Positions 7,321-21,220 of a DNA stretch of 22,474 bases are shown here, one piece after another. Made by a program: the position numbers and the translations under genes. Every line of letters begins with the position of its first letter. The first letter of the stretch is position 1. The stretch is from a virus: positions 1-22,474 of the IMG/VR virus record IMGVR_UViG_3300047202_000032; one strand, given 5' to 3'. Under the pieces are notes generated by a model. That model searched no databases. It was not told the DNA's origin and was given only the letters and a program-made list of their open reading frames with translations.

Positions 7321-7548
7321 TCATGTTACCAATGCCCATATTCCAGTACCGAGGATACTAGTGCCAGTAAGAAAAGCAACCAGTATCCAGAAATTACGAT
7401 TTAACTTTGCATAATTATTTTCTAGTGTCTGAACCCTTCGCATCATACCGCCTTGACCATCAATGCCAATTAGGGCATCATGCAACTGGCGAATATCATC
7501 ATGTGATTCCCTTATTAAATTTTCTAATTCTTTAGTGAATTCAGCCAT
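7321..7548 (-). CDS. Coiled-coil plus single-TM protein, holin-accessory (XhlA-like) candidate
   Basis: 75 aa. The N-terminal 50 residues form a heptad-like helix (FTKELENLIRESHDDIRQLH ... VQTLENNYAKLNRN), interrupted by GIDGQGGMM. A C-terminal membrane helix (FWILVAFLTGTSILGTGIWAL) follows. This layout resembles XhlA-type hemolysin/holin accessory proteins found after tail genes. It is adjacent (stop TAA, then ATG) to another small membrane protein. No endolysin is in the window, so the lysis role is an inference from topology and position. A virion-associated membrane protein is the alternative. Confidence 0.5.
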   Translation of the reverse strand: MAEFTKELENLIRESHDDIRQLHDALIGIDGQGGMMRRVQTLENNYAKLNRNFWILVAFLTGTSILGTGIWALVT

Positions 7549-7749
7549 TTACTTGCTCTCTCCATCTTTAGGCGGAGTACGTCTGTAATAAAATTGAATA
7601 ATGAGAGTCCATGTAACAAGCAATCCGCCATTAACCTCAGTAGGGAATGATAATTTATTGGCTCCTTGTAATGCCCACATAAGGGGTATTAGGATAATCA
7701 AAATCAAAGCCAGAAAATCATTGAAATTTTGCGGTAAGAACTTACTCAT
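7549..7749 (-). CDS. Small two-TM membrane protein, holin candidate
   Basis: 66 aa, with AAGGAG and good spacing ahead of ATG 7749. Two membrane segments, about 11-27 (FLALILIILIPLMWALQ) and 41-55 (GGLLVTWTLIIQFYY), are followed by a charged RRTPPKDGESK tail. Size, two helices and charged C-terminus fit a small holin, and position after the tail genes agrees. Similar V-x-G-x-L-V...I-x-F-Y-Y/F-R-R-x-P endings occur in many uncharacterised phage membrane proteins, so a definite holin call would be too strong. Confidence 0.5.
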   Translation of the reverse strand: MSKFLPQNFNDFLALILIILIPLMWALQGANKLSFPTEVNGGLLVTWTLIIQFYYRRTPPKDGESK

Positions 7750-7763
7750 GTTAGTAACTCCTT

Positions 7764-7868
7764 TTAGTCCTTCAATTTACGGGTAATCGTGACCTCAGCT
7801 CCCATAACCGTGATTGAATCACCCACTTTTTTGTAAGTCGGTAAACCTGTAGTAAATACAATCGCCAT
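7764..7868 (-). CDS. Small hypothetical protein, 34 aa
   Basis: ATG 7868 overlaps the tail-tip stop as TAATG and the frame runs 34 codons, ending 15 nt before the next start with AAGGAG directly after the stop. The sequence has short strands: MAIVFTTGLPTYKKVGDSIT, VMGAEVTITRKL. It may be a tiny beta-rich virion piece or part of the tail tip. Exact gene-to-gene spacing is the main argument for coding. Confidence 0.5.
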   Translation of the reverse strand: MAIVFTTGLPTYKKVGDSITVMGAEVTITRKLKD

Positions 7869-10231
7869 TATAATTCAACTCCGATAATAATTCGAGGGGT
7901 AGCTCCACCCGTAAGTCCGACAATATCCTGTTTATTATCAATTTGTTCAATCGAATCTATGTCATTACTGACTCGGATTCCTAAAGGACACATGCCACCG
8001 ATACACGTCAGAACGTAAGCTAATCCGTCTGCGTTTAACTCAAAATAGTTATATTCGCCTTCTGTTGTTTCTGAATTCGCGATAGAACCTAAAATTGTCG
8101 TGCTATCGTGTAAGACATGATAATCCGTAGCGATTAATGGTTGACTAACGCCTGCACCAGAAACAACATCAATATCATAATCAACTGCCGGTGAAGATTT
8201 GGCGGCACAATAATAACCGAACAGCACGCTTTTAACTGCCGATGCAGAAATAGAAGTCAAATCGAACCAAAATACAATACGTTCAATTTCAAAAGTTGAT
8301 GGGTCCTTTTTCCAGTTCGAGGCATAATGGGTTGTTGCATCAGGTCTAGTTCCATCACCAGACGCGGCGTTTTGAACAGCGTTATAATCATACGCTGGAC
8401 CTTCCTTATAAACGCTATCTGTATGGCTCGCTTCGATAATTCTATATTGGTTTACATCCCAGAGTTGCCATCTGACAATGTATAAATCTTCTTCACGCGA
8501 CCAATCTTCTTCAATGCCCTCAATATGGTATTCTCTGTTTATCAAAGCAGGATTTTGTGTGCTGTTTAGAACAACTTTAATTCTGATTGAAATTCCATAG
8601 CCTAATACTTTTGGATAGAGGTCATCTGGACCAGCATCGGGATAAATCACTAGAGAATCTACTCTGAGTATGGAATCCGAAAAACGCTTCGTGAAAATAT
8701 AGGCGAGGTAAAAAGCATTCTGGTCTTCGGCAATCAAAGAATCCCTGCGTTCTAATGCACAAACGCCTTGCGTTGATTGTAAAGTTGAATCCCGAACAAT
8801 TTGCTCGGTGATTCCCGTCCCGGCGATGCGCACTTCATTGTAAATAAAATCATCATCATCAACTAATTGTGGTTCAATATATTTGCTGTCAGTGCCGGCA
8901 TCTGTAAAGGTTGCCAGTGGTGTATTATAAGGCGGTTTTTGTCTAGATTCCGCGTCCTGAAAAACAATATCTCCATTACCGTCTTGAAATATAATGCCGT
9001 TTTCCGCTTCAGCGACCTTCTGTAACATTTCAAGCGCGTTCATACGGTCTGAGACTTGCTGAGGATTATACGCGATAACATCTACTGTACCGCCATCAGA
9101 ATAACGCATACCTGCCGGCCAGTTGATAGAGTTCAATACCGATGTAAAACGATTCGCTGATACCTGTTCGATGTAGGGACCATCAAGAGGAATACGTGCC
9201 AAACGCTTGAATATATCTACACAGTTCAGTTCAACAATGGGATTATAACCGCCTCCGCTAAGCCAACTATGATTAAAGGATTCTACAACTCCATAAAAAC
9301 GGCGATAAGTCGTGCCGTTGTAAATAACATTATAACGTATTGGTGTCCATGGTTTAACGACTTCCTTACCAGCAGCAACATAGAATGTGCCGGCGGTATT
9401 ATTTCGCCACCAGTTGCCATCATCATTATTTAACGTAAAAGTCGCTGTCCCTGCCTCAATTCTATCTAATTGATGTTTTCTACCGCGTTTGATTTTGACA
9501 TTCATCAAATCAGAACTAATATCCGTCCATGTGAGTGCAGTACGGTCTGTAAAAATGGATTGGTTAAATGCAAGTTCAAGGATTTTCTCACCATTTTGAG
9601 GCATGGGAAAGGCTACAACTACCGCGCACCATGTCGATGAGGAATGTGTTGCTGTCATTGTTGTTGATGCAGGGGGACTAATTACACTATTTGTATCCCA
9701 TATTGCCAGACATCCATATCCCGTTATGGGACAAGAATCAATATATCTTGTAGTATAATTTGTTGATGTGAAATCGGGATAACCCCAACACGCTGCAAAT
9801 ATCCAATCATTATCTAGTAACGGTGTAACAGACACGCTTGGCGAACCAATAAGAGATCCAGTCCCACCTGAAACATCCTTTAATGAGGGTTGTCCCACGC
9901 GATAGCCGGAATATGAACAGGCACTAGCTCTGGCGACAGTAGCGTGGTCAATCATCGTTACTACGATATTATGAGTACCAACGGAGGGATTTTCTAACCC
10001 GAAAATATCCACTCGCCAATAAGCGCTGTCCGCCGAGGCAGTTTGAATAAGGATCATTAGGACACCATTATATTTTACATTGCCGACGCCAGTTACTTCC
10101 CCAGCATGGTATGCCCCAACCGCTACCAATAAAAAATTAGCCGAAGCGCCGCAGGTATGTGCCCATGTCAAACTTGAACAAGGGTCGGTTCCTTCTGCAC
10201 TATGTGATTTTGCGTCAAAGGCTATAGTCAT
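7868..10231 (-). CDS. Large multi-domain tail-tip/baseplate and receptor-binding protein
   Basis: 787 aa, three apparent parts. Residues 1-210 are strand-rich (ANFLLVAVGAYHAGEVTGVG, YWRVDIFGLENPSVGTHNIV, ending CAVVVAFP), like beta-sandwich adhesion domains in phage tail proteins. Residues about 215-600 look like the tail-hub core: EAGTATFTLNNDDGNWWRNN, FYGVVESFNH, IVELNCVDIFKRLARI, then ALEMLQKVAEAENGIIFQDG and REYHIEGIEEDWSR. These are typical of distal-tail/hub proteins. Residues about 605-787 form a further beta-sandwich (DSVYKEGPAYDYNAVQNAA ... RIVFWFDLTSISASAVKSVL), like DNRLRE/CBM-type adhesion modules. It is the only sizeable gene between the tape measure and the membrane proteins, so it probably combines the Dit, hub and receptor-binding functions. 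The start overlaps the tape-measure TGA. Confidence 0.75.
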   Translation of the reverse strand: MTIAFDAKSHSAEGTDPCSSLTWAHTCGASANFLLVAVGAYHAGEVTGVGNVKYNGVLMILIQTASADSAYWRVDIFGLENPSVGTHNIVVTMIDHATVARASACSYSGYRVGQPSLKDVSGGTGSLIGSPSVSVTPLLDNDWIFAACWGYPDFTSTNYTTRYIDSCPITGYGCLAIWDTNSVISPPASTTMTATHSSSTWCAVVVAFPMPQNGEKILELAFNQSIFTDRTALTWTDISSDLMNVKIKRGRKHQLDRIEAGTATFTLNNDDGNWWRNNTAGTFYVAAGKEVVKPWTPIRYNVIYNGTTYRRFYGVVESFNHSWLSGGGYNPIVELNCVDIFKRLARIPLDGPYIEQVSANRFTSVLNSINWPAGMRYSDGGTVDVIAYNPQQVSDRMNALEMLQKVAEAENGIIFQDGNGDIVFQDAESRQKPPYNTPLATFTDAGTDSKYIEPQLVDDDDFIYNEVRIAGTGITEQIVRDSTLQSTQGVCALERRDSLIAEDQNAFYLAYIFTKRFSDSILRVDSLVIYPDAGPDDLYPKVLGYGISIRIKVVLNSTQNPALINREYHIEGIEEDWSREEDLYIVRWQLWDVNQYRIIEASHTDSVYKEGPAYDYNAVQNAASGDGTRPDATTHYASNWKKDPSTFEIERIVFWFDLTSISASAVKSVLFGYYCAAKSSPAVDYDIDVVSGAGVSQPLIATDYHVLHDSTTILGSIANSETTEGEYNYFELNADGLAYVLTCIGGMCPLGIRVSNDIDSIEQIDNKQDIVGLTGGATPRIIIGVEL

Positions 10232-10779
10232 CTAATCCCACTCGTACCATTTCGATTCTGGTCGGCAATAATATTAGTTCGTACCACGCCAGATACCTTT
10301 TTACCGTCAATGAAATTATTAATTATCACTGGAGAAACTTTTGATTTTGATGTAGTTGTTTCAGCTACTTTTTTGTTTGTGGCTGATATAGAAACTCCAG
10401 CAACGGCAACAGCGCCAGCAAGTGCTGCCCAACCCCAGGGACCAGAAAGAGCTTTAGTTATCATTTGCCAAGTGGCGAGAGTTCGGAGAGCATTAACCAT
10501 TTTCCCGATGGCTGCGATGAATTGAAAAGAGGAACCGATAGCGGTAGCGATTGCGCCGACCGTCATCATCATATTGCCTACGGTTTGCCCTAACGCCGAA
10601 TTGGATTGTTTCAGGGCAAATCCCATTGCAAGAAATGATGTACCGAGATAAGTAATGCCATAACCCAACTGCCGGACAGCGGCCATATTTGTACGCAGGG
10701 AAGTATTGACCTTTTTCAGTGTAGGGGTAAATTGGTCATTCGCTTTTATGATGACTGATAATTCACCTATTGACGCCAT
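10228..10779 (-). CDS. Very short tail tape measure-like protein
   Basis: ATG 10779 is chosen because GGAAGGAAG precedes it; an in-frame GTG at 10794 lies inside that site. The 183-aa product starts MASIGELSVIIKANDQFTPT and continues LKKVNTSLRTNMAAVRQLGYG, the usual tape-measure opening, then has long hydrophobic helices (about 40-125, e.g. GNMMMTVGAIATAIGSSFQF, PWGWAALAGAVAVAGVSI). It ends VIINNFIDGKKVSGVVRTNI, like tape-measure C-termini. Position between the chaperone GT frameshift gene and the tail tip fits. Most siphovirus tape measures exceed 600 aa. By the roughly 1.5 angstrom-per-residue rule this one would set a tail of only about 27 nm. No frame continues it on either side. Confidence 0.7.
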   Translation of the reverse strand: MASIGELSVIIKANDQFTPTLKKVNTSLRTNMAAVRQLGYGITYLGTSFLAMGFALKQSNSALGQTVGNMMMTVGAIATAIGSSFQFIAAIGKMVNALRTLATWQMITKALSGPWGWAALAGAVAVAGVSISATNKKVAETTTSKSKVSPVIINNFIDGKKVSGVVRTNIIADQNRNGTSGIR

Positions 10780-11391
10780 ACTCTTCCTTCCCACCCATTT
10801 GAGTATTTATCAAGCGGGCGATTAATGCCATCTGGTCGGCTGTTTGTAGAGATGATATTTCGCTTGAAGGCATAAATTCTTTAGGTTGGAATTCCTTACC
10901 TGAAAGCCCTGATGCTATTACGGATGCTATCAAAGCTGCCCTCCAGTTCAACCATTCCTGCTCTTCATCCCATCTATCTCGTAGTGCCTTAAATTCTCGT
11001 GGTGTTAAGTACCAGAAAGAAATTTCGGGATATTTGAGATTGTAGATCGCGAAGCTCCAGAGTTCGAGCCAGTTAATTCCTCTGTTGCTAAAGGGACTGT
11101 TTCAGGTTTAACCTCCGGCATTGAATTAAGGATACCCTCCATCAATTTCTCAGCCAGCTCTTCATTGCTGATAGGTTTTATAAGTTCTTCGATGGATTCT
11201 ATTTTTAGGGTTTCATCTTCCCACATCAAGCAAACCCATACGAGAGCCAGCATTTCTTTAGGAGTTAAATCTTCGAGATTGCCTTTTGTAATATCCGCTC
11301 CCGTCAATTCCTGAAATTCCCTGATACCGCGAAAGGTCAATTTAATATGGCGCTCTTTATCCAAATTGATTTTGGTAACTTTGAAATCCAT
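10763..11391 (-). CDS. Tail assembly chaperone GT fusion made by -1 ribosomal frameshift
   Basis: Frame 0 runs from ATG 11391 to Leu101 (TTA, 11091-11089). After a -1 shift on C CCT TTA the reading continues AGC AAC AGA ... to TGA at 10763, giving about 209 aa. The T part reads INWLELWSFAIYNLKYPEIS, FWYLTPREFKALRDRWDEEQ, EWLNWRAALIASVIASGLSG, ending KEEYGVNR. It is open with no stop across the overlap, has no convincing start of its own, and its L-T-P-R-E-F element is typical of the C-terminal chaperone half. Siphoviruses make G and GT from one mRNA to coat the tape measure during tail assembly, and the tape measure follows here, with the fusion's end overlapping it. The shift itself is inferred from sequence. 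Confidence 0.8.
11005..11391 (-). CDS. Tail assembly chaperone G (unshifted product)
   Basis: 128 aa, with AAAGGAG ahead of ATG 11391. The N-terminal strand-rich part (FKVTKINLDKERHIKLTFRG) leads to a helical core, REFQELTGADITKGNLEDLT, PKEMLALVWVCLMWEDETL, and acidic helices EELIKPISNEELAEKLMEGI. After the slippery site the zero frame adds a low-complexity Ser/Gly tail and stops at 11005, as expected for a frame that is only a by-product of the overlap. Lies between the tail tube gene and the tape measure, the standard position. Confidence 0.85.
   Translation of the reverse strand: MDFKVTKINLDKERHIKLTFRGIREFQELTGADITKGNLEDLTPKEMLALVWVCLMWEDETLKIESIEELIKPISNEELAEKLMEGILNSMPEVKPETVPLATEELTGSNSGASRSTISNIPKFLSGT
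11089..11095 (-). promoter_or_regulatory. -1 frameshift slippery heptamer CCCTTTA
   Basis: Minus-strand C CCT TTA fits X XXY YYZ exactly in the G reading frame: P-site CCT slips to CCC and A-site TTA to TTT. Shifting -1 enters the only open frame that encodes the T domain. About 85 nt of zero-frame coding remain downstream. No obvious pseudoknot was traced by eye. Confidence 0.8.
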
Positions 11392-11833: not shown

Positions 11834-12232
11834 CTAATAATGGATAATATAATCAATTGCCATCCCATAAATTTGTAATGGCGAATCTTCAAAAGATAAA
11901 TCAATCTCATTTTCAAGAAAACATCCGCCAACCACTATTCCGCCGGTTGCCATCGTGCCTTTAAAACCATTAAATATTGTCTTAATGGCTGTAGCTATAT
12001 CTTTACAACCATCGTAAGTTGTCGCGAAGATTGAAAGTTGAAGTCTAGCAGTAGATTTACCAGAGGCAGCATCGAAATTCGGAGTAAGCGGTATATTTGA
12101 GATGCTATGAATCACAACATAAGGCACAACCGCATCAGGTGGAGCTTTCACATAATAAACACGACTTTTAACCAAGTCTGTTATTGCCGATGTTTCCAGC
12201 ATTTCCTTCTGGAACGCTTCCTCGATTATCAC
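11834..12232 (-). CDS. Tail completion/terminator protein, DUF3168-like
   Basis: 132 aa, GTG start at 12232 sharing GTGA with the previous stop and with AAGGAG 10 nt upstream. It contains SRVYYVKAPPDAVVPYVVIH, then ARLQLSIFATTYDGCKDIAT, AIKTIFNGFKG, and a C-terminal IYGMAIDYIIHY. The pattern (R-V-Y...P-x-x-x-x-x-P-Y-V-V-I...V/L-Q-L-S-I-x-A...A-I-x-x-x-F-x-G) is that of DUF3168 tail completion proteins, which cap the tail tube and join it to the head. Context in the connector block agrees. Confidence 0.8.
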   Translation of the reverse strand: MIIEEAFQKEMLETSAITDLVKSRVYYVKAPPDAVVPYVVIHSISNIPLTPNFDAASGKSTARLQLSIFATTYDGCKDIATAIKTIFNGFKGTMATGGIVVGGCFLENEIDLSFEDSPLQIYGMAIDYIIHY

Positions 12233-12651
12233 GGTGTTGGTGCTCCTTCGATATTGGCTTTTATCTCTTCGGCAATCTCAAGTTTGATAACATCTTTCTC
12301 CGAATCAAAGACAGGTCTAAAAAAAGGATGCGGAGGGACAAACCCAAAACTCTTCCCTTTTCTGCTGAATCTGATGGCGTGTCCGAATTCTACCAGATGA
12401 GCATGGGGAGCTATCCCATAATTAATACCTGCCATTGCCGGCGCATATTTGTCGCCTCTTCGTTGCAGGACTTTAGCAACGATACCACGTTTCAGATTTC
12501 CTGTTTCATCTTGTGGAGCAGCAGTTGAGGCACGTTCTCTTATCATTTCCGCTTTGGATAATAAGATGTTCTCAACGACATCGGGTTCCATCTGCTGAGC
12601 TATCTTTTCGATATTCTCCTCGATTTGTTCTAACCCTTGCACTTCATTCAT
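12229..12651 (-). CDS. HK97 gp10-like head-tail joining protein
   Basis: 140 aa. After an N-terminal helix (LEQIEENIEKIAQQMEPDVV), it reads AEMIRERASTAAPQDETGNL-KRGI, then HLVEFGHAIRF, and FVPPHPFFRPVFDSEKD. The hallmark series A-P-x-x-x-T-G-x-L-x-x-x-I ... H-x-x-x-V-E-F-G ... P-x-P-F-x-R-P matches HK97 gp10/phage joining proteins. It overlaps both neighbours by 4 nt (ATGA and GTGA). Located between the adaptor and DUF3168 genes as in HK97-like operons. Confidence 0.85.
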   Translation of the reverse strand: MNEVQGLEQIEENIEKIAQQMEPDVVENILLSKAEMIRERASTAAPQDETGNLKRGIVAKVLQRRGDKYAPAMAGINYGIAPHAHLVEFGHAIRFSRKGKSFGFVPPHPFFRPVFDSEKDVIKLEIAEEIKANIEGAPTP

Positions 12652-12968
12652 ATCGTGATTTCCTTATAGGTCAAAAGAAGTTCTTTGTTCAATTCATCAC
12701 GGTCGATGATGGCGATAATCTGGAAATATCTTGTGCCATATTTGATTCGCATCAAGGGATTTACGTCTGTGCGGTATCGGATTCGGCATATCCCCTGGAC
12801 TTCGCTGTTTGCCTGCTGCGCCAAAAAGAGTCTGTTCCCAGTCAAAGGTTCGATTGCCGCCCAAATCGTAGCTGTTGTCGCATAAGTATCGATTAGTTCA
12901 TTCATCGAGTTAAGGCTACGGGAGGGCGTTTGCAATTCGATTCTTTGTTTTAATTCACCGGCTCTCAT
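12648..12968 (-). CDS. Head-tail adaptor (Phage_H_T_join/SPP1 gp16-like)
   Basis: I start at ATG 12968, where GGAG lies 6 nt upstream and the start overlaps the connector's TGA; the in-frame TTG at 12980 has no such support. The 106-aa product begins MRAGELKQRIELQTPSRSLN and has YATTATIWAAIEPLTGNRLF, CRIRYRTDVNPLMRIKYGTR and YFQIIAIIDRDELNKELLL. The order M-R-A-G-x-L-x-x-R-I, W-A-x-I-x-P, I-R-Y-R-x-D-x-x-P, M-R-I-x-Y, I is characteristic of the family that forms the stopper ring beneath the connector. Confidence 0.85.
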   Translation of the reverse strand: MRAGELKQRIELQTPSRSLNSMNELIDTYATTATIWAAIEPLTGNRLFLAQQANSEVQGICRIRYRTDVNPLMRIKYGTRYFQIIAIIDRDELNKELLLTYKEITI

Positions 12969-14068
12969 CAAAAACTCCAAATACGATATGGATAGAGTAG
13001 AGCATCAACCGCCATAGGTACATTTTGCAATGCTTTGTCGGTTGTCTCCTCACGGTGCTCATAGAGATGTCCGATAATTAAAAGCATTGCCTGCCTAATT
13101 TCTTGAGGTACGGTTGCCGCAGTATCGCCGTAACCACAAATAAATCTGACATTGACTCCATTAGCAGGTCTTAAGGTCGTTGTTGCCCACGATTTACCCC
13201 AATTTAGATAAATACGTGCGGGATTACTGATAATGTCAACAAAATAATCTCCAGCACTCATTTCCGCCGCTGTATCATCGGTGTCGTAATAGGTAATAAT
13301 CGGCGAAGCGGTCGCTGTTCCCGTTCCTGCGCCAGCACCGGTAGCGGTAAAGACCACGCCGACCGTATTGGCGGAAGCTCCGATAAGGATAAAATTAGTT
13401 GAACCAATAGAGGTTATACGATATTTGGTAGAGGTCACAAAAGCACCCGCCGTCACGGAAGGTTCTTGTAATGGCGGCAAGGGAACTTCCAGATAATCTT
13501 TGACAGGGAATTTATCGAGCCATAAATCCCACGTCTGAGTAATCAAGGCTCTATTTATTATCTGCTCGCAATAACGGCGCGCAGTAGTGATAAGCGCATC
13601 AATTAGCGTATCTTCGGCGGAGGTCGGTTCGCTGGTCACTATGGAGACACCAAAGTCAGCGGTGGCGGTCGCGACTGTAGAAACAACTCTCAAATATTGT
13701 TTTGTACCAGTGTATGCCTTTTCAAAGTTGGCATTGGCAGTTGCAGTATTTACCTGAGTAAATCCACCAGAGGTTACATCTACATAATTGCCGTCTACAT
13801 CGGTATCCGACTCTTGTAGTTTAACGTCTACAGTGCTACCAAGCCCAAATCCAGCCCACTCAAACAACACCAGAGTCTGTTTACCCAGTACATCTACCCC
13901 TGCACCTTTTAATGAATAGGCGGCGGCTTGGATATGGTCACCGGGAAAGATAGACTGTGTACTAGTTATATCATCCGCAAAAGAGCCTGAATCAATGCGA
14001 CAGTGGAGCTTCGCCTCCGTTGCAGTTATCGGTTCAATGGTTGGAGCGGAATATATTTTTAATGCCAT
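12968..14068 (-). CDS. Head-tail connector (gp6/phiE125 gp8-like) with two inserted beta-rich domains
   Basis: 366 aa, about twice the usual size. The family core is split: residues 1-28 (MALKIYSAPTIEPITATEAK LHCRID), about 149-204 (AEDTLIDALITTARRYCEQI, NRALITQTWDLWLDKFP, LPPLQ) and 255-366 (SAGDYFVDIISNPARIYLNW, VRFICGYGDTAATVPQEIRQ, AMLLIIGHLYEHREETT). Insert 1 at about 30-148 is a strand-rich domain (VLFEWAGFGLGSTVDVKLQE ... YTGTKQYLRVVSTV). Insert 2 at about 205-254 is STKYRITSIGSTNFILIGAS ANTVGVVFTATGAGAGTG, a module common in phage tail and surface proteins. These inserts would project from the connector ring. GGAG lies 8 nt before ATG 14068. Confidence 0.85.
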   Translation of the reverse strand: MALKIYSAPTIEPITATEAKLHCRIDSGSFADDITSTQSIFPGDHIQAAAYSLKGAGVDVLGKQTLVLFEWAGFGLGSTVDVKLQESDTDVDGNYVDVTSGGFTQVNTATANANFEKAYTGTKQYLRVVSTVATATADFGVSIVTSEPTSAEDTLIDALITTARRYCEQIINRALITQTWDLWLDKFPVKDYLEVPLPPLQEPSVTAGAFVTSTKYRITSIGSTNFILIGASANTVGVVFTATGAGAGTGTATASPIITYYDTDDTAAEMSAGDYFVDIISNPARIYLNWGKSWATTTLRPANGVNVRFICGYGDTAATVPQEIRQAMLLIIGHLYEHREETTDKALQNVPMAVDALLYPYRIWSF

Positions 14069-14089: not shown

Positions 14090-15019
14090 TCAAGCATTAA
14101 ATAAATGACGTTCTGATTGGTAGATTCCTGCTATTTCTGTGACGGAAAGGGCACAATTGAATAATCTGTGTGACCCCATTCCATCCTTCCAACAAGAAGA
14201 AGCTCCAGCCCAAGCACCAATTCTTAACAATGCTCCACTTGCACCTAAATTCAGTGCGGTAGCATTAATAGGTGTACCAACTGCTATCCCATTCCTTTGG
14301 ATTTGCACGATATGGGAAGTACTTGTAATTGAGTACATAGCATAACCATTGTCCCTCTCATCAATTCCTGCATATGAATAAGCAGCAGCAGATATTTCAA
14401 CAGCGATACTCGTACTTTCCCACCCGAAAGCTATCCAACTAGCAGCCGAACGGTTATTGAAGATACCCCCTTGCGCTCCGACACCTGTTAAGAGGGATAC
14501 CCAACCAATATAAGTAAAGTCAGAATTCCAATCGAACACTACAGCCCCACAAGATATATAATCATTCGTCCCATCAAAACTATTTACCCATAGTCCAGAT
14601 GGGAGTCTTGACCAAGTTGCGCCTATTATCGTGCCGTGATTGTTGTAGCCTGACAAATCTCTAATCGTACTTGATTGGGGGTCTTGTTGCCCTTCCAGAT
14701 AGAGGACACAACTGCCCTTGACGATTTTTAAGACATCCTGATTGGTTAAATGAGTAGTGGCTATAGAACCGTGAGTTCCCCTGACTACCGTAAGAACCGT
14801 AGGATTGGCAGCGTCATTACCTGAAATGGTCATATATTCAGTTTCAATCCTGATAATCGTGCCTATGGGTAGTGTCACAGCCCCCGCGTCCTGAGCATCC
14901 AGCGTAATGTCAGTTTCGATGGCAGTCAGTTCATCATCAGTATCGAATCCAGAATCAGAGAGCGATTTATAGGAGCGTGGCTTGAAGCGAGGCATATAAG
15001 AGGGTCTAGTCGCAATCAT
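14090..15019 (-). CDS. LamG/concanavalin-A-like phage structural protein
   Basis: 309 aa, with GAGG seven nt before ATG 15019. Residues about 35-105 contain TDITLDAQDAGAVTLPIGTI, RIETEYMTISG and LTVVRGTHGSIATTHLTNQD, a small module typical of phage structural proteins. Residues about 115-305 look like a LamG/ConA-type lectin sandwich: DLSGYNNHGTI, FDGTNDYISCG, FTYIGWVSLL, IQRNGIAVG, LRIGAWAG, MGSHRLFNCALSVTEI AGIY. Such domains bind carbohydrates. It sits inside the head-gene block between decoration-like genes and the connector, so a head-surface or neck decoration function is inferred. A misplaced receptor-binding protein is possible. Confidence 0.7.
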   Translation of the reverse strand: MIATRPSYMPRFKPRSYKSLSDSGFDTDDELTAIETDITLDAQDAGAVTLPIGTIIRIETEYMTISGNDAANPTVLTVVRGTHGSIATTHLTNQDVLKIVKGSCVLYLEGQQDPQSSTIRDLSGYNNHGTIIGATWSRLPSGLWVNSFDGTNDYISCGAVVFDWNSDFTYIGWVSLLTGVGAQGGIFNNRSAASWIAFGWESTSIAVEISAAAYSYAGIDERDNGYAMYSITSTSHIVQIQRNGIAVGTPINATALNLGASGALLRIGAWAGASSCWKDGMGSHRLFNCALSVTEIAGIYQSERHLFNA

Positions 15020-15021
15020 TT

Positions 15022-15525
15022 TTAGTCCTCGACTTTATCGCTCACTGTTAATGCTATCGTCATTACTGTTGATGCCTCGTCCACTATCGCATCCCGTGTT
15101 ACAGCCAGAGCATATAATCCTGTATTGCCCGGAGCCGTTTGGAATAATAAGGGAAGATTACCATAAGTATTGTAGTCAATCGTAGATGCACTCATACCGC
15201 CCATATCCTCAAGAGCAATCTGGTCAATCTGTCCCTGGAATGAATAACGGTCAGTTGCCCCTGGACTTGTATTTGCCACATTGTCCCTGAGTTCCATAGT
15301 CGGCGGTTCTTTGAATAGATAGAGGGTTATCCTGGGAGTCAATGCCGTTGTTGTCCAGATGATTGTGCATTTGACTATTTTACCGAAGTCTCCGCCTTTT
15401 TTGACAACATTCGGAAAGTACCAGTATTGATGATTTGTAGCTGTCGTGGAATCACTCATTACATCTTCTGCGGCATAATCTCCAGCCGCGACCAAGAGCT
15501 TATCGACTTTAATAGTCTTTAGCAT
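15022..15525 (-). CDS. Putative head-associated structural protein, 167 aa
   Basis: AGGAGGATAACT-ATG is a strong start. The product is all-beta in appearance: YWYFPNVVKKGGDFGKIVKC, TIIWTTTALTPRITLYLFKE, YGNLPLLFQTAPGNTGLYAL, VMTIALTVSD. It resembles the many single-domain beta proteins encoded downstream of phage capsid genes, but I cannot name a family. A 25-nt hairpin lies just upstream. Coupled closely to the LamG-domain gene. Confidence 0.6.
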   Translation of the reverse strand: MLKTIKVDKLLVAAGDYAAEDVMSDSTTATNHQYWYFPNVVKKGGDFGKIVKCTIIWTTTALTPRITLYLFKEPPTMELRDNVANTSPGATDRYSFQGQIDQIALEDMGGMSASTIDYNTYGNLPLLFQTAPGNTGLYALAVTRDAIVDEASTVMTIALTVSDKVED

Positions 15526-15545
15526 AGTTATCCTCCTGATTTATG

Positions 15546-15570
15546 AGGGAGGGGAAATAATCCCCTCCCT
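15546..15570 (+). terminator. Strong hairpin, terminator-like when read on the plus strand
   Basis: AGGGAGGGGA (15546-15555), loop AATAA, TCCCCTCCCT (15561-15570): a perfect 10-bp stem. On the plus strand ATTTTCTTTTTTA follows, an intrinsic-terminator tail. On the coding (minus) strand there is no U-run, only the ribosome site of the next gene. It might stop antisense transcription, or act as an mRNA stabilising or processing hairpin between two structural genes. Confidence 0.6.
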
Positions 15571-15580
15571 ATTTTCTTTT

Positions 15581-16204
15581 TTAGAGTTGGACTTCTGCCC
15601 AGGTTGCGCCGACATGATAAGTGTTAGTAACATCAGCGCCCATTACGGAAACACCCAGCAAACCGCCTGGAGGCAGAACGATTAAACCGTCCATGCGGGC
15701 ATAGAGTTGATGACCGGGAAGATTAGCAACAACTGTATTATTGCCAGGTCCGACCGGGAACCATCCGGTATCAACCACGTTGGCGCCAGGAGCGGGTAAA
15801 ATGCCAGAACCGGTATAACTTCCGCCTCTTGCCCTTGCTGATACAGGCGTTACTGATGCCGTCTTATTTGCTACTCGTGCATCATTGACCACATAAATCA
15901 ATCCTGCTTGCTGTAGAACAGCAGCATCAGCAACCGCCATTATCGCAAACAAATCGATAATAATCATGGAGAGTCCACCATCACCTGCCGAATTCTGGAG
16001 CGTGAAGATGCTGGCAGTTGTCGGAACAGCAATGACACAGGCAGTTGCTGCTGACTTTGCCCGCCATACCTTATTTGCATTCACGAGATAGGTAAAATCG
16101 GGAAGTCCCTTTACGACATATTGATTGCCGAATTTATCGGCTTGTGTCTCAATAGAACCCCCAAGTCCATCTCTTTCATGTGCTTCTTGAACATAATTAG
16201 CCAT
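15581..16204 (-). CDS. Putative phage structural (head decoration-like) protein, 207 aa
   Basis: 207 aa starting behind AGAAGGGA. The N-terminus has YVQEAHERDGLGGSIETQAD (polar) and then a beta-rich body: KVWRAKSAATACVIAVPTTA, SIFTLQNSAGDGGLSMIIID, GLIYVVNDARVANKT, LPGHQLYARMDGLIVLPPGG, LLGVSVMGADVTNTYHVGAT. The K-V-W-R-A...T-A...P-T-T-A...L-x-N...I-D and P-P-G-G-x-L-G pattern recurs in uncharacterised virion proteins encoded near phage capsid genes. Decoration of the capsid surface is inferred from location; no domain named with certainty. Confidence 0.6.
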   Translation of the reverse strand: MANYVQEAHERDGLGGSIETQADKFGNQYVVKGLPDFTYLVNANKVWRAKSAATACVIAVPTTASIFTLQNSAGDGGLSMIIIDLFAIMAVADAAVLQQAGLIYVVNDARVANKTASVTPVSARARGGSYTGSGILPAPGANVVDTGWFPVGPGNNTVVANLPGHQLYARMDGLIVLPPGGLLGVSVMGADVTNTYHVGATWAEVQL

Positions 16205-16267
16205 TTTTACTTTTTCCCTTCTGACCGCCGCTTAATAGTCTGTCACGGTCTATTTTATTTTTGCGGT

Positions 16268-17218
16268 TTATGCTGCCGCAACAGTTGCCCCGACATCTAT
16301 CGGGAAGTAGAATAAAACCCATTTGAATGTACCGTCTGTAGTTGCATCACAAGTAACTCCGATGCTACCAGTCTGACAAATCTGCGGACATCCTAATTGG
16401 ACAGCACCTTTATGAGCAACAAGAATATCATTCGCTGGTATACCAGTCCATGAAGTCAAATCGCCAATATCACAAGTATCCAAATCAGCATCCGCACAAA
16501 TGTCTGTCACAGGAGATGTTGCCGCTGTCGGCGTTACTGTGTATTTGACATTATTTGCCCCACCTACGGCAACTGTACATTCTCCTATCATGGCGGTTAT
16601 TAAAACTTTACCACCAGCAATATTGTATAAAGCTCCATAAACTGAGGAAGGTAGTGCTGTTGCTGCTTTGTCCACTCGACAACCGAGAATCATATCCCTG
16701 ATTCGCTGTCTGCTCCACTCATCGTAATGTTGAGAAGTTGAAGTCGAGATGGTTGAAGCATAGACATAGGCGCCATCATCAATAGGAACATAAAACATTG
16801 TCCATTTGATATTGCCTGTTCGACTAGCGGCACAAGCGAGATTCAGAGTGCCGATTGGAAGCACAACGGGTTTATCGATTCTTGCACAACCGACATGAGC
16901 AGCTAACATGGCATCCGCAGGAGTCCCGGTAATGGAAAGAATATCCCCAACATCGCAGGTATCAATATCAAGATTGGCACATAAATCGGTAGTACCTGCT
17001 GTTGCTACAGTAGGATATGCCGTGAGCTTTGTATTGTCTGCACCGCCGATTGCCGTTGTCACTTCACCCATGATACCAGTCATTGCAACCCGCCCGCCTG
17101 CTATGGTGAATAGCGTGTGATTGCCTGACTGGGGAAGCGTGGCGGTATCCCTATCCACACGGAAACCAAGCCGCACATCGGCAAGTCTTGACCGAGTATG
17201 CGAATCGTAGTATGGCAT
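16268..17218 (-). CDS. Structural protein with internal tandem domain duplication, 316 aa
   Basis: GAGGAG lies 7 nt ahead of ATG 17218. Residues about 17-150 and 178-311 are clear copies about 161 residues apart: LGFRVDRDTATLPQSG / LGCRVDKAATALPSSV; TIAGGRVAMTGIMGEVTTAI / NIAGGKVLITAMIGECTVAV; CANLDIDTCDVGDILS / CADADLDTCDIGDLTS; KWTMFYVPID / KWVLFYFPID. Conserved cysteines occur in both (C80/C88 and C241/C249; C129/C290). The divergence (roughly half identical) shows an old duplication. Location between capsid and connector genes suggests a decoration or head-surface protein. Half-length homologues acting as multimers are a plausible ancestor; family not recognised. Confidence 0.7.
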   Translation of the reverse strand: MPYYDSHTRSRLADVRLGFRVDRDTATLPQSGNHTLFTIAGGRVAMTGIMGEVTTAIGGADNTKLTAYPTVATAGTTDLCANLDIDTCDVGDILSITGTPADAMLAAHVGCARIDKPVVLPIGTLNLACAASRTGNIKWTMFYVPIDDGAYVYASTISTSTSQHYDEWSRQRIRDMILGCRVDKAATALPSSVYGALYNIAGGKVLITAMIGECTVAVGGANNVKYTVTPTAATSPVTDICADADLDTCDIGDLTSWTGIPANDILVAHKGAVQLGCPQICQTGSIGVTCDATTDGTFKWVLFYFPIDVGATVAAA

Positions 17219-17267
17219 TTATTTTCTCCTCAAGCTGAGTAGTGCCATCAGGTCAGCTCTATTTTAT

Positions 17268-17738
17268 TTACGCTAAAGCGGTATGAAGTGCAGCACCCTG
17301 GTATTTTGGATAAAGAACGGCAACTGCAGCTATGAATTGTTCTGTTGCTGAACCATCGAGTTTTGCAGTTATCCAATCATAGCCATCGGTTAATTCTGCT
17401 GCATCGATTTCCACCACTAGCATCATGTCCTCATAGGTTGCGGCAGTTATAGTCAATGCTGCCGATGTTGTTTCAGTACCGAGAACATCAGCATTTGCCG
17501 CCTTACATATAGCCGCAGTTGCCCTATAAGAGAACGTGATGGCAGCAGCAAGGTCGCCATCTGTGGCGCCTTCGTAGATAGTCAGAATATTGTCTGCCGT
17601 ATTATCTCCGAATAAAAGGATTAGAGTTGCATGACTATAATTTTTCATGCAAAAAGAATCGAATGTCTCTGCACCAGCGCCCGCATCTTCAGGTTGTTGC
17701 AGAGGAACTATTTTGAATTCTTCACAAAGTCTGCTCAT
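17268..17738 (-). CDS. Putative head protein following the capsid gene, 156 aa
   Basis: 156 aa, preceded by GTGGGG about 9 nt upstream and 32 nt after the capsid stop. Predicted strands: ATLILLFGDNTADNILTIYE, AAITFSYRATAAICKAANA, AALTITAATYEDMMLVVEI, FIAAVAVLYPKY. The small alanine-rich beta domain with an acidic N-terminal arm fits a decoration/stabilisation protein, which phages often place directly after the capsid gene. I recognise no family; assignment is positional. Confidence 0.6.
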   Translation of the reverse strand: MSRLCEEFKIVPLQQPEDAGAGAETFDSFCMKNYSHATLILLFGDNTADNILTIYEGATDGDLAAAITFSYRATAAICKAANADVLGTETTSAALTITAATYEDMMLVVEIDAAELTDGYDWITAKLDGSATEQFIAAVAVLYPKYQGAALHTALA

Positions 17739-17770: not shown

Positions 17771-19054
17771 TTACCGGGCTGCGATACAAATATAAGGACT
17801 CATGTAGAAGGAGCTGGAAGTTCTTTTGTATGGCGTGATTTTGGACTTCAGGATAGGAGCGCCATTTACCCGATAGGTGAACCTGAAGACGCTTTGGTCG
17901 GTCAAGAAAGCCACATGGATCGATTCGGCTGTCTGAATCCCGCTCTTGTCGATGATGATATATTGTGTCGGGTCCATCAGGATTATATCGCCAACATCAC
18001 CCGGGCCAGACGCCTGCTCAACCGCGATTGCTGGGCGTCCTAGAATTGTTCCATCCGTGCCGATTCCACCGGGTTTAAACAGATTGGACATTACGCCGCC
18101 AGTACCAATCGGGAAGGTCAGGAGTTGGAGTTGGTCTTCGAGTTCCTGATTATAAAACCAGTATGCATTTGCTCTTCCGAGACAAGCCTTCCACATTCCG
18201 AGGATATTTGTTGAAGTAACCGTATCGGCTGTTTGTCCGGTATCTTTCGGGACGCTCAGGAGGGCATCACTTTCAAGAATACCCAACATCTGTCCGGCAC
18301 CAGTACCGCGAATCACACCATCGGAAAGTTTAAATCCTATTTCCTCGGAGAATGCTTGGGTAATGACCGCGCCTAATTGTTCAGCATCTTCCAGTAATTC
18401 GGAGGTTGCATAACAAACACCCATGATTTTGTCGAGATTCAGTTCAAACCTGCCGAATTTCGGCGTTTTTGATGTAGTAGAATCTGCCTCTGCTTCCCAA
18501 TAAACCTGTACTCCACCCCATCGCGAACCTGTTGCTCGACTTGTTTCATCGATAGTCTTTAATTTAAGACCATTATTACCAGGACCAACCGGCAATTTAC
18601 GGCATTTATTTGCCACCGCCGAAGTATCATAGGCTGCCTTGAGTAGAGAACCAACTAGTGACTGGTCTACCCAAAATCCGCCCAATGTCGGTACGGCTTC
18701 GTTCAAGCCAGTCGCGGCGCGGGTTTCCATCAGCCGGTTATCAAATCCTCTACCGGTTGCAAATCGGGCTATTGCCTGAAGTTGCTCTCCAATCGACCGC
18801 CATGCAGGTTTATTTTCTGGTTTCGCCTGTGGAGTTGTCGTAATCCCCCGGAGTTCCTCATCGGAAATCCGATTGACTTTCGCGTAGTTGTCCATCCTGG
18901 ATTCGGTAACATCAATCTCGGCATTAATTGCTTCAAATCGTGTTTTTTCATCGGCGGTCATAGCACGATTTTCTTTTTCAGTTTTACTCAGAATGACATT
19001 ACCTTCATCCTTGAGGGCTTTGATTTTAGCCCTGAATTCCAGTATCTTTAGCAT
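17771..19054 (-). CDS. HK97-fold major capsid protein
   Basis: 427 aa, with AAGAGGTGAAAA before ATG 19054. The first 75 or so residues are a charged coiled coil (LKILEFRAKIKALKDEGNVI, EKENRAMTADEKTRFEAINA), the HK97 delta/scaffold domain, normally removed by the prohead protease encoded just upstream. The core begins near ATGLNEAVPTLGGFWVDQSL and contains SRWGGVQVYWEAEADSTTSK-TPKFGRFELNLDKIMGVCYA TSELLEDA, then GTGAGQMLGIL and FLTDQSVFRFTYRVNGAPIL-KSKITPYK at the end, matching HK97 gp5-type coat proteins. Length agrees with coat plus delta domain. The position after the protease agrees. Confidence 0.95.
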   Translation of the reverse strand: MLKILEFRAKIKALKDEGNVILSKTEKENRAMTADEKTRFEAINAEIDVTESRMDNYAKVNRISDEELRGITTTPQAKPENKPAWRSIGEQLQAIARFATGRGFDNRLMETRAATGLNEAVPTLGGFWVDQSLVGSLLKAAYDTSAVANKCRKLPVGPGNNGLKLKTIDETSRATGSRWGGVQVYWEAEADSTTSKTPKFGRFELNLDKIMGVCYATSELLEDAEQLGAVITQAFSEEIGFKLSDGVIRGTGAGQMLGILESDALLSVPKDTGQTADTVTSTNILGMWKACLGRANAYWFYNQELEDQLQLLTFPIGTGGVMSNLFKPGGIGTDGTILGRPAIAVEQASGPGDVGDIILMDPTQYIIIDKSGIQTAESIHVAFLTDQSVFRFTYRVNGAPILKSKITPYKRTSSSFYMSPYICIAAR

Positions 19055-19068
19055 TTTTCACCTCTTAT

Positions 19069-19803
19069 TTATTTTTTGTAACCGTAATTAAGCCTCAATT
19101 TCTCAAGATTGGATTCAGACGGTTTCAACGTCCCCTTCTCATCCTGTTTTTTTAAGGCAGATATATAATCCCTGACCATGACCGTTGTTTGAGGATAGGC
19201 AGGGAAAGTTACTGGAGATACATCATATAGTTTGACTTCTTGGAGAGTCCTGATTGATTCTTTACCCTGGATGTGTTCCCAATTATCTTTGACGACTGTA
19301 AATCCAAAGGACATTTGAGAAATATCGCCGCGCCTGATTGATTCCTGTAAATCTTTCGCCCATGTGGTATTCGGCGGGTCTATTTCGATATAAAGCCCTT
19401 CGTTATCTTCCTTCAATTTAAGTGTGCCTGATTTATTTCTACCTAAAGGATAATTAGCATCATGATTGAAAAGCGCTCTTATATCATCCTGTTTGAGCGA
19501 TTTTTTGAAAGCACCTGGCGCTATTTTCTCTCTGAAATCAAATAACGGTTCGGAAAGTTGATTGAACATAGCGGCATGACCGATTATCTTTGGTTGCTTT
19601 TCTTCCGATAGACGAAATTCTGTCAAAGAAACATTCCTCCGTTCTATCTCAATATCAAGACTATCTTCACCGCGCCATTGTTTGAAACAGACTGCCAAAC
19701 GTTGTTTATTATCGGGGAAATCTTCTTTCATAATGTCATTTCCCATACAACGCTCGATAAATTCATCCTGTTTTTCCCCAGTATTCGGTTTAGGTATTGG
19801 CAT
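19069..19803 (-). CDS. Prohead maturation protease (U35/HK97 gp4-like)
   Basis: I start at ATG 19803, one nt past the portal stop, because AAGGAGG sits 6 nt ahead; an upstream ATG frame from 19830 would place that site inside the gene. The 244-aa protein has GHAAMF (residues 75-80), LFNHD (111-115), DISQMSFGFTV (160-170) and VKLYDVSPVTFPAYPQT (190-206). This H...S order with M-S-F-G-F and V-S-P-V-T-F-P-A-Y is the HK97 prohead protease signature. It carries an N-terminal extension of about 45 residues (MPIPKPNTGEKQDEFIERCM ... DNKQRLAVCFKQW) typical of a subset of phage head proteins. It processes capsid delta domains within the prohead. Confidence 0.9.
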   Translation of the reverse strand: MPIPKPNTGEKQDEFIERCMGNDIMKEDFPDNKQRLAVCFKQWRGEDSLDIEIERRNVSLTEFRLSEEKQPKIIGHAAMFNQLSEPLFDFREKIAPGAFKKSLKQDDIRALFNHDANYPLGRNKSGTLKLKEDNEGLYIEIDPPNTTWAKDLQESIRRGDISQMSFGFTVVKDNWEHIQGKESIRTLQEVKLYDVSPVTFPAYPQTTVMVRDYISALKKQDEKGTLKPSESNLEKLRLNYGYKK

Positions 19804-19804
19804 A

Positions 19805-21220
19805 TTAAGCCTCCTTATGTCCATTACCACCGATAGCGGAGGTAATCTCTTTTTCCATAAAGTTCTTGAAGTCTCTATGATAATCTTCTAACCAAACATC
19901 GAAATTAGCAGGGTCGCGCTTATATGCAGCCAAGACATTCTTTTTATCTCTATCGGCAATTGTCCGGACAACATCCTCAATCTTATTTTGATTTGGTTGC
20001 TGTGGTGCTGGTAATTTTCCAGCTAATTCCATCGGTATCATGTTCTGCTGAACATAATATTTATCAGCACCTTCATCATCGATAGGATTCATATTTTCTT
20101 TTTCTCTGATGTCATTCGGACTAAAGGCACCCATGTAAAAGAGTTCTTTATAGAATGTGGCACGAGCTTGAGAATCACCTCGAAGTAAAGCATCAACCAG
20201 AAATTCAAAAAAGAAAAGATTACGTTCAAATGGTAAAAGTAACTTGCGGTTACACGTCTGTTCCCATCGCACTAACCAAGGTTGCATTGTATAGGTTACA
20301 AATTCGATTGCCTGATGTTCAATGTTGGAGAATGTTGCTCTATCCAGATCACCAATCATATGAGGAGGTATATGTAAAAGTCTCGCTATTTCATCGAGTT
20401 GGAATTTCCGACTTTCAAGGAATTGAGCATTTTCCGGAGGTATACCAGTTTGTTTATAAGTCATACCTTCTTCCAGGATTGCTATCCGGTGTTGATTGGA
20501 AAGTCCCTGATGCATTTCATTCCAAGATTTTCTTAAATTCTCCTGTGCTGGAGCTGATAATTTATTCGGATGTTCGAGCACACCTCCAGGATTCGCACCA
20601 TTCCCGAAAAACCGCGCTCCATATTCCTCCATTGCGAGAGCCATGCCGATGGCTTCTTTCGCCAAATAGATAGAATCATAACCGATAATTCCGTCAAATC
20701 CGAACCCTGGCAAATGCCAAATTCGGTATGCTGGCAATTTGACCGTTTCACCGGTCGGTAATCGATAGGCATAAATCAGTTCTTTGGTTATATCATCACG
20801 ACCGACCTGCATTTTATCAGGACGTAATGGCCATAATGCTTCAGGATAACCATCAGGATTCCATTGGATTTCAGCAAAGGCATTTCCCCATGTAATAACG
20901 TGCCCTTGCATTGTTTCCTTAAATGACATAGCCGACATTTCAGGATTCGGAGCATCATGCAGCAATCTATATAGAATTCTATTTGTAGCGCGTTCTTTGC
21001 CCCGTGGTTCAAGTCTGACATATTCAATTAAAGGCAACTGTCCGATTGTCTCTGAAATCAATCTGACGCCTGCAAAGTAAGGCACACAATTCATTGCGGA
21101 ATTCTGATTTACATTCACGCCAGTCGCCGATGGTCTGCCATTGATGAGCAAATCCATCGCCTTGTCCATATCTGAAAGTGAGAAAAGCCTTAATTCCTTT
21201 TTCGTAAACGGGATTCTCAT
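19805..21220 (-). CDS. Phage portal protein (HK97 gp3-like)
   Basis: 471 aa, starting in ATGA overlap with the terminase stop. Contains PYFAGVRLISETIGQLPLIE, RILYRLLHDAPNPEMSAMSF-KETMQGHVITWGNAFAEI, LWPLRPDKMQV, IWHLPGFGFDGIIGYDSIYL, then EYGARFFGNGANPGGVLEHP, RIAILEEGMTYKQTGI, FQLDEIARLLHIPPHMIGDL. The order and sequences (V-x-x-C/A-V-x-x-I-S...W-G-N-A-F; F-F-x-N-G-A...P-G-G; I-A-R-x-x-x-I-P-P-x-M-I-G) are those of Phage_portal family members, which form the dodecameric DNA channel. The C-terminal 90 residues are acidic/basic and variable. Confidence 0.95.
   Translation of the reverse strand: MRIPFTKKELRLFSLSDMDKAMDLLINGRPSATGVNVNQNSAMNCVPYFAGVRLISETIGQLPLIEYVRLEPRGKERATNRILYRLLHDAPNPEMSAMSFKETMQGHVITWGNAFAEIQWNPDGYPEALWPLRPDKMQVGRDDITKELIYAYRLPTGETVKLPAYRIWHLPGFGFDGIIGYDSIYLAKEAIGMALAMEEYGARFFGNGANPGGVLEHPNKLSAPAQENLRKSWNEMHQGLSNQHRIAILEEGMTYKQTGIPPENAQFLESRKFQLDEIARLLHIPPHMIGDLDRATFSNIEHQAIEFVTYTMQPWLVRWEQTCNRKLLLPFERNLFFFEFLVDALLRGDSQARATFYKELFYMGAFSPNDIREKENMNPIDDEGADKYYVQQNMIPMELAGKLPAPQQPNQNKIEDVVRTIADRDKKNVLAAYKRDPANFDVWLEDYHRDFKNFMEKEITSAIGGNGHKEA

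Follow-up and report, generated by a model that had tools for sequence, protein, structure and literature searches.

A viral clade with miniature tape-measure proteins and a predicted stub tail

At 22,474 bases, the window is one linear virus contig from IMG/VR that may be incomplete. Its minus strand carries, in order, the large terminase, portal, protease, HK97 capsid, five ORFs without an assigned role, the head-tail adaptor, head closure, a gp10-like protein, the tail terminator, tail tube, chaperone G, T, a 183-aa ORF and a 787-aa ORF (Table 1); the non-virion genes in the window include those for a DNA methyltransferase and an exonuclease-like protein, alongside this phage-type packaging cassette. 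The five ORFs between capsid and adaptor (14090-17738) are likely to encode capsid decoration or head fibres; their sole Pfam match is a LamG domain (14090-15019), and the 316-aa product of one (16268-17218) resembles a tandem duplication of a single domain. The adaptor has a large inserted domain (phrog_5707 at residues 48-148) that is kept in the related contigs L002 and L004. On the 3' side of the tip gene, at 7321-7749, lie two small ORFs with hydrophobic stretches, holin- and XhlA-like by eye and with no family match, and no endolysin was recognised in the families searched.

Table 1. Virion features of the window, in minus-strand order.
Feature	Position	Strand	Evidence or remark
Large terminase, cut by contig end	21217..22473	-	phrog_9, E 5e-138
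Portal	19805..21220	-	phrog_12, E 1e-131
Head maturation protease	19069..19830	-	phrog_80, E 1e-58
HK97-type major capsid protein	17771..19054	-	phrog_10, E 9e-30
Head-tail adaptor, gp6-like, 366 aa, extra internal domain	12968..14068	-	PF05135, phrog_40
Head closure (stopper)	12648..12980	-	PF05521, phrog_25
HK97 gp10-like tail completion or Neck1	12229..12651	-	PF04883, phrog_5
Tail terminator	11834..12232	-	PF11367, phrog_347
Major tail (tube) protein, 140 aa	11401..11823	-	phrog_158, E 7e-9
Tail assembly chaperone G, 128 aa	11005..11391	-	phrog_2115, E 4e-13
Slippery heptamer CCCTTTA, G frame	11089..11095	-	lies shortly after the open -1 frame begins; would give a GT fusion
T part of GT chaperone, -1 frame	10763..11089	-	PF06223 Phage_tail_T, E 9e-6, over cut-off; open frame
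Miniature tape-measure protein, 183 aa	10231..10779	-	full-length relatives in 14 other distinct loci; N-terminus, a hydrophobic helical segment and the C-terminal motif align in order with long tape measures
Tail tip protein, 787 aa	7868..10231	-	phrog_2106/553/5313; Foldseek and VIA-align

The 183-aa ORF runs from an ATG at 10779 to a stop at 10228 and shares an ATGA overlap with the start of the 787-aa ORF (10231-7868); both ORFs had been given at these lengths in the preliminary description of this DNA and are confirmed. Its stop-to-stop frame has only 192 codons, and it is therefore not part of a longer in-frame protein. It sits between the G/GT chaperones and the tip or hub gene, which is the tape-measure protein (TMP) position of a siphovirus tail operon, and an in-frame heptamer, either CCCTTTA or CCCTTTT, is present at the G/T overlap in all eight of the mini-TMP loci examined. 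Tape measures of lambda-like phages are handled by G/GT chaperones, and the presence of the pair here is a further reason to read the gene that follows as a TMP.

Scans with the TMP and the hub identified 15 distinct IMG/VR loci with a TMP of 178-243 aa (median 184): 183 in the window, 184 in L002, 185 in L004, 243 in L007, 181 in L008, 179 in L009, 183 in L010 (L011 is nearly identical), 180 in L012, 182 in L020, 213 in L021, 193 in L022, 212 in L024, 212 in L025 (L026 is nearly identical), 213 in L030 and 178 in L045; L052 and L054, which have no convincing TMP, are omitted from this length comparison. Ten of the 15 fall within 178-193 aa even though identity drops to about 25%, and the ends and the hydrophobic segment are kept even at 25-43% overall identity. 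The relatives are full-length, occupy the same gene position and lie on independent contigs, which excludes the frameshift or assembly error that had been named as a possible cause of the shortness, and for the window and L004 genes the NG86 estimates (dN 0.39, dS 2.5) indicate purifying selection, dS against L002 being saturated. The earlier view that the TMP is complete and has genuine ends is thus borne out, and by these comparisons the 183-aa ORF is a genuine, complete miniature TMP in a canonical siphovirus tail operon. The loci together point to a short ruler as a trait of a whole clade, comprising at least 14 related viruses and the window.

Two further checks proposed beforehand gave divided answers. 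The 183-aa protein alone matched no TMP family in Pfam or PHROGs, and only the mini-TMPs of L025 and L030 have such a match, a weak one (E 0.006 and 5e-4). Homology to tape measures already recognised is seen instead through a profile of the mini-TMPs, which matches long relatives, and all four of the long relatives scanned in PHROGs score as tape measures, down to E 4e-45. Structure prediction supported a tripartite 787-aa protein by fold and gave a poor model of the 183-aa protein (mean pLDDT 48), with helices at 19-58, 62-98, 114-139 and 160-174. Hydrophobic stretches exceed the cut-off in several relatives, but not in the window protein. Weak sequence matches of the TMP profile to coiled coils and receptors in the PDB (E 0.09 and above) were judged to be due to chance.

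No match was obtained by tblastn of four mini-TMPs (window, L007, L008 and L025) against phage records, and scans of genome contigs for a prophage or host recovered no mini-TMP member; they did yield a single relative with a long TMP, from an Acidimicrobiaceae MAG (L053), and a match confined to one motif, which did not convince (L054). A scan with the tail tube protein alone gave no matches. Several members of the clade have features of their own. L002:2694-3551 carries a tandem pair of related genes for the tail tube (products of 141 and 140 aa), as compared to a single gene in the window, and the L002 tube may contain two different subunits. At L009:7898-8890 and L045:3539-4525 the tube protein has its own C-terminal carbohydrate-binding module, from the family to which the hub module belongs (E 1e-20 and 3e-19), and sugar-binding domains may coat the stub tail in these two. 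On the L021 contig (L059:3150-6196) four genes separate the 213-aa mini-TMP from the hub, and a direct TMP-hub junction is therefore not universal in the clade. We also note a 1080-aa ORF near the protease gene at L018:6909-10151, in which NNIISHNC, close to the end, resembles the C-terminus of an intein within a portal or packaging gene, and, in a mini-TMP phage, a TnpB-like ORF (by eye) at L017:18434-19552, upstream of the terminator gene and on the strand opposite to the tail genes.

The 787-aa ORF, the single large one after the TMP, had been described as a tripartite fusion of hub and receptor-binding functions, and profile and fold comparison agree on this. Residues 1-211 match minor tail families by profile, and residues 212-594 have a gp27/VgrG/gp44-like hub fold (Z 9-12 by Foldseek and VIA-align), matching hubs of phages, T6SS and contractile systems (Mu gp44, T4 gp27, VgrG, pyocin and E217), in a core model of moderate pLDDT in which the domain arrangement is not reliable. 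The C-terminal domain, assigned to residues 594-787, matches beta-sandwich carbohydrate-binding modules over its whole length, at residues 592-786 (8wab, Z 15.8; 7vbo, Z 12.6), and this C-terminal module is predicted to bind sugar. The hub profile matched no solved structure among the PDB sequences, that of RcGTA included, the hub being placed by fold comparison only; a match to a Streptomonospora plasmid covers 20% of the hub and was set aside. Between the TMP and the hub we recognised no gene for a separate distal-tail protein (Dit).

Relatives that share the hub core and lie outside the mini-TMP clade have TMPs of 413-1316 aa, which leaves a gap from 243 to 413 aa without any locus. When 33 hub cores were placed in a maximum likelihood tree, a single branch separated the 13 with mini-TMPs from the rest (support 100/100, recovered in 200/200 bootstrap trees); the corresponding support was 99/99 in a previous tree of 11 rows, phiPsal1 and Mae-JY09 among them. 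The long-TMP lineages lie beside the mini clade and, by midpoint rooting only, the root having no independent fix, outside it, so that the simplest history is that the shortening probably happened once. Each of the 11 complete mini-clade hubs has the C-terminal carbohydrate-binding module, as against none of 20 long-TMP hubs; because this distribution follows one branch of the tree, it counts as one correlated change and not as eleven. An N-terminal extension of about 200 residues or more is also usual in the mini clade, with the exception of L009, and the long-TMP hubs mostly begin at the core.

Comparison of a profile of 15 mini-TMPs with long TMPs (L013, L037 and L046) reveals which part is missing. 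The matches form collinear blocks: profile positions ~1-76 fall on the N-terminus, 87-144 on residues ~275-331 and 145-182 on the extreme C-terminus; in L013, for example, positions 2-77, 87-144 and 145-178 match residues 1-76, 275-331 and 382-415. Profile-profile comparison supports the last two blocks (98% and 82% probability), and the N-terminal block has support from sequence-profile matches only. These collinear blocks indicate that the mini-TMP is a tape measure that lacks ~200 central residues and ~50 residues before the tail motif. This C-terminal motif has the variant SPVIINNFIDGKKVSGVVRTNIIADQNRNGTSGIR in the window, and a GSVxTE core with an RNxTSGI end in most of the others.

A full-length tape measure elsewhere in the genome would have told against this interpretation, and none was detected by TMP profile in the window or in relatives of 30-39 kb. 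PF10145 and phrog_9483 have no match in the window or in the mini-TMP contigs tested, although phrog_9483 matches two of the four long relatives included in the scan, and the long central ruler or PhageMin_Tail-type core is absent from these sequences. Among the ORFs listed for the four longest mini-TMP contigs (30.6, 38.9, 31.7 and 33.5 kb) there is no further tape-measure candidate; all of the mini-TMP contigs are linear records, possibly incomplete, and the absence applies to the sequence covered. Such a core is usual in TMPs and is not strictly required, as the accepted RcGTA TMP is of similar size.

Tail length can be estimated by scaling. The lambda TMP has 853 aa. The lambda tail has 32 rings (PMC8718954), which corresponds to ~27 residues per ring. 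In the gene transfer agent of Rhodobacter capsulatus (RcGTA) the TMP, Rcc01694, has ~113 + 83 + 20 residues (~216), and the tail is built of five tube rings plus a distal-tail ring at a 3.83-nm pitch (PMC7296036), or ~36 residues per ring; this tail was called the shortest among the systems compared (PMC8718954). On these two scales 183 residues correspond to five to seven rings, or to four to six tube rings if one ring is the distal-tail equivalent, and from the genes alone we infer a tail of 4-7 rings and 16-29 nm. The stubby tail of about 27 nm predicted earlier, on the assumption that the whole chain is one helix, comes near the upper end of this range. The scaling points to tails in this lineage that are about as short as the shortest known.

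We think it likely that the 183-aa ORF is a working TMP reduced to its ends and that the resulting stub tail has about 4-7 rings (16-29 nm). Such a protein would retain the N-terminal anchor, the hydrophobic helices and the C-terminal tail, without the ~200-residue central ruler of the sister lineages. The chaperones G and GT probably load it onto the hub, after which tube rings would be added one on another along the short helix, with the terminator as the cap that ends growth, and the hydrophobic helices may enter the host membrane. With both adhesion ends (the N-domain and the C-terminal carbohydrate-binding module) carried by the hub, a tube, a ruler and one tip protein would suffice. A bolder proposal, on which we are evenly divided, is that the centre was lost once, in an ancestor from which came a lineage of true phages with a tube of at most five rings, the shortest siphovirus-type tails known and a morphology close to that of podoviruses, and that this loss was linked to the move of receptor binding onto the hub.

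The most serious competitor, which we nevertheless regard as unlikely, is that the small protein is a tail-tip initiator or a membrane-channel protein without ruler function, with tube length set otherwise, for example by self-polymerisation of the tube stopped by the terminator, and with longer or variable tails. It would fit the lack of the central TMP region and of any TMP family score for the 183-aa protein alone, and the SPP1 tube protein can indeed self-polymerise (PMC8718954). However, the gene position, the G/GT frameshift pair and the terminator are all retained, length is held to 178-193 aa in 10 of the 15 loci at identities down to ~25%, and RcGTA has a TMP of like size with a matching short tail.

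We give still less weight to the idea that a normal TMP lies beyond the contigs and that the 183-aa ORF encodes an accessory tail protein; the window is a linear fragment with its terminase cut off, but this ORF occupies the exact TMP position, and neither profiles nor ORF sizes reveal another TMP in four relatives of 30-39 kb that carry both packaging and tail genes. There is only a slight chance that the contigs represent gene-transfer-agent or satellite particles and not phages, as the TMP size and the hub-borne sugar-binding domains might suggest from their resemblance to RcGTA: the phage-type packaging cassette and the methyltransferase and exonuclease-like genes accompany the tail module, the relatives reach 39 kb, and the hub profile has no sequence match to the solved RcGTA structure or to any other. 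Least credible is that the ORF is what remains of a long TMP after breakage or misassembly. Although the sister lineages do have long TMPs, the conserved length refutes it, and 14 other distinct loci have full-length relatives with intact ends, dN being well below dS.

The reading of the 183-aa ORF as a working, reduced TMP makes the clade a natural counterpart of the classical ruler-deletion experiments, in which a minimal ruler has persisted long enough for the sequences to fall to ~25% identity, with the centre as the dispensable part and both ends and the hydrophobic helices as the parts kept. Tail-length control could be studied in it as a small and tractable system, and the link between tube-tailed and short-tailed phages is another question on which it bears. 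There is also a practical aspect for annotation pipelines; most mini-TMPs match no TMP family, and such phages may be scored as having no tail ruler. Compared with the reading of a single sequence, two points are new: a clade is defined by the trait, and the part that the TMP lacks can be named; a TMP of similar size, that of RcGTA with ~216 residues, was already known.

A literature search for a described phage with so short a TMP pointed only to RcGTA. The two systems share a siphovirus-type tube and a short TMP, and no sequence relation between them was found; RcGTA differs in its 113-residue helix, separate distal tail protein and multi-protein baseplate, whereas the window TMP is shorter and is predicted to consist mainly of hydrophobic helices, and one hub protein bears the adhesion domains. 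Lambda has the same G/GT pair with a -1 frameshift, the T domain (PF06223), a TMP that sets tube length, and a tip, but its tail has 32 rings (PMC8718954). Also close are the long-TMP sisters (IMG/VR L013, L014, L028, L031, L032 and L035-L048, with L045 itself counted as mini-TMP), which share the hub core, homologous TMP ends and, mostly, the gene order MTP-G/GT-TMP-hub, and which differ in having TMPs of 413-1195 aa with a tape-measure core and hubs of mostly ~395 aa without the carbohydrate-binding module. The only phage records with a hub match (tblastn, direct or through L014; 26-28% identity) are Pontimonas phage phiPsal1 (MG835450) and Microcystis phage Mae-JY09 (PP395641), whose TMPs have 740 aa and 1554 aa respectively, the latter assigned by position and size, as compared to 183 aa in the window.
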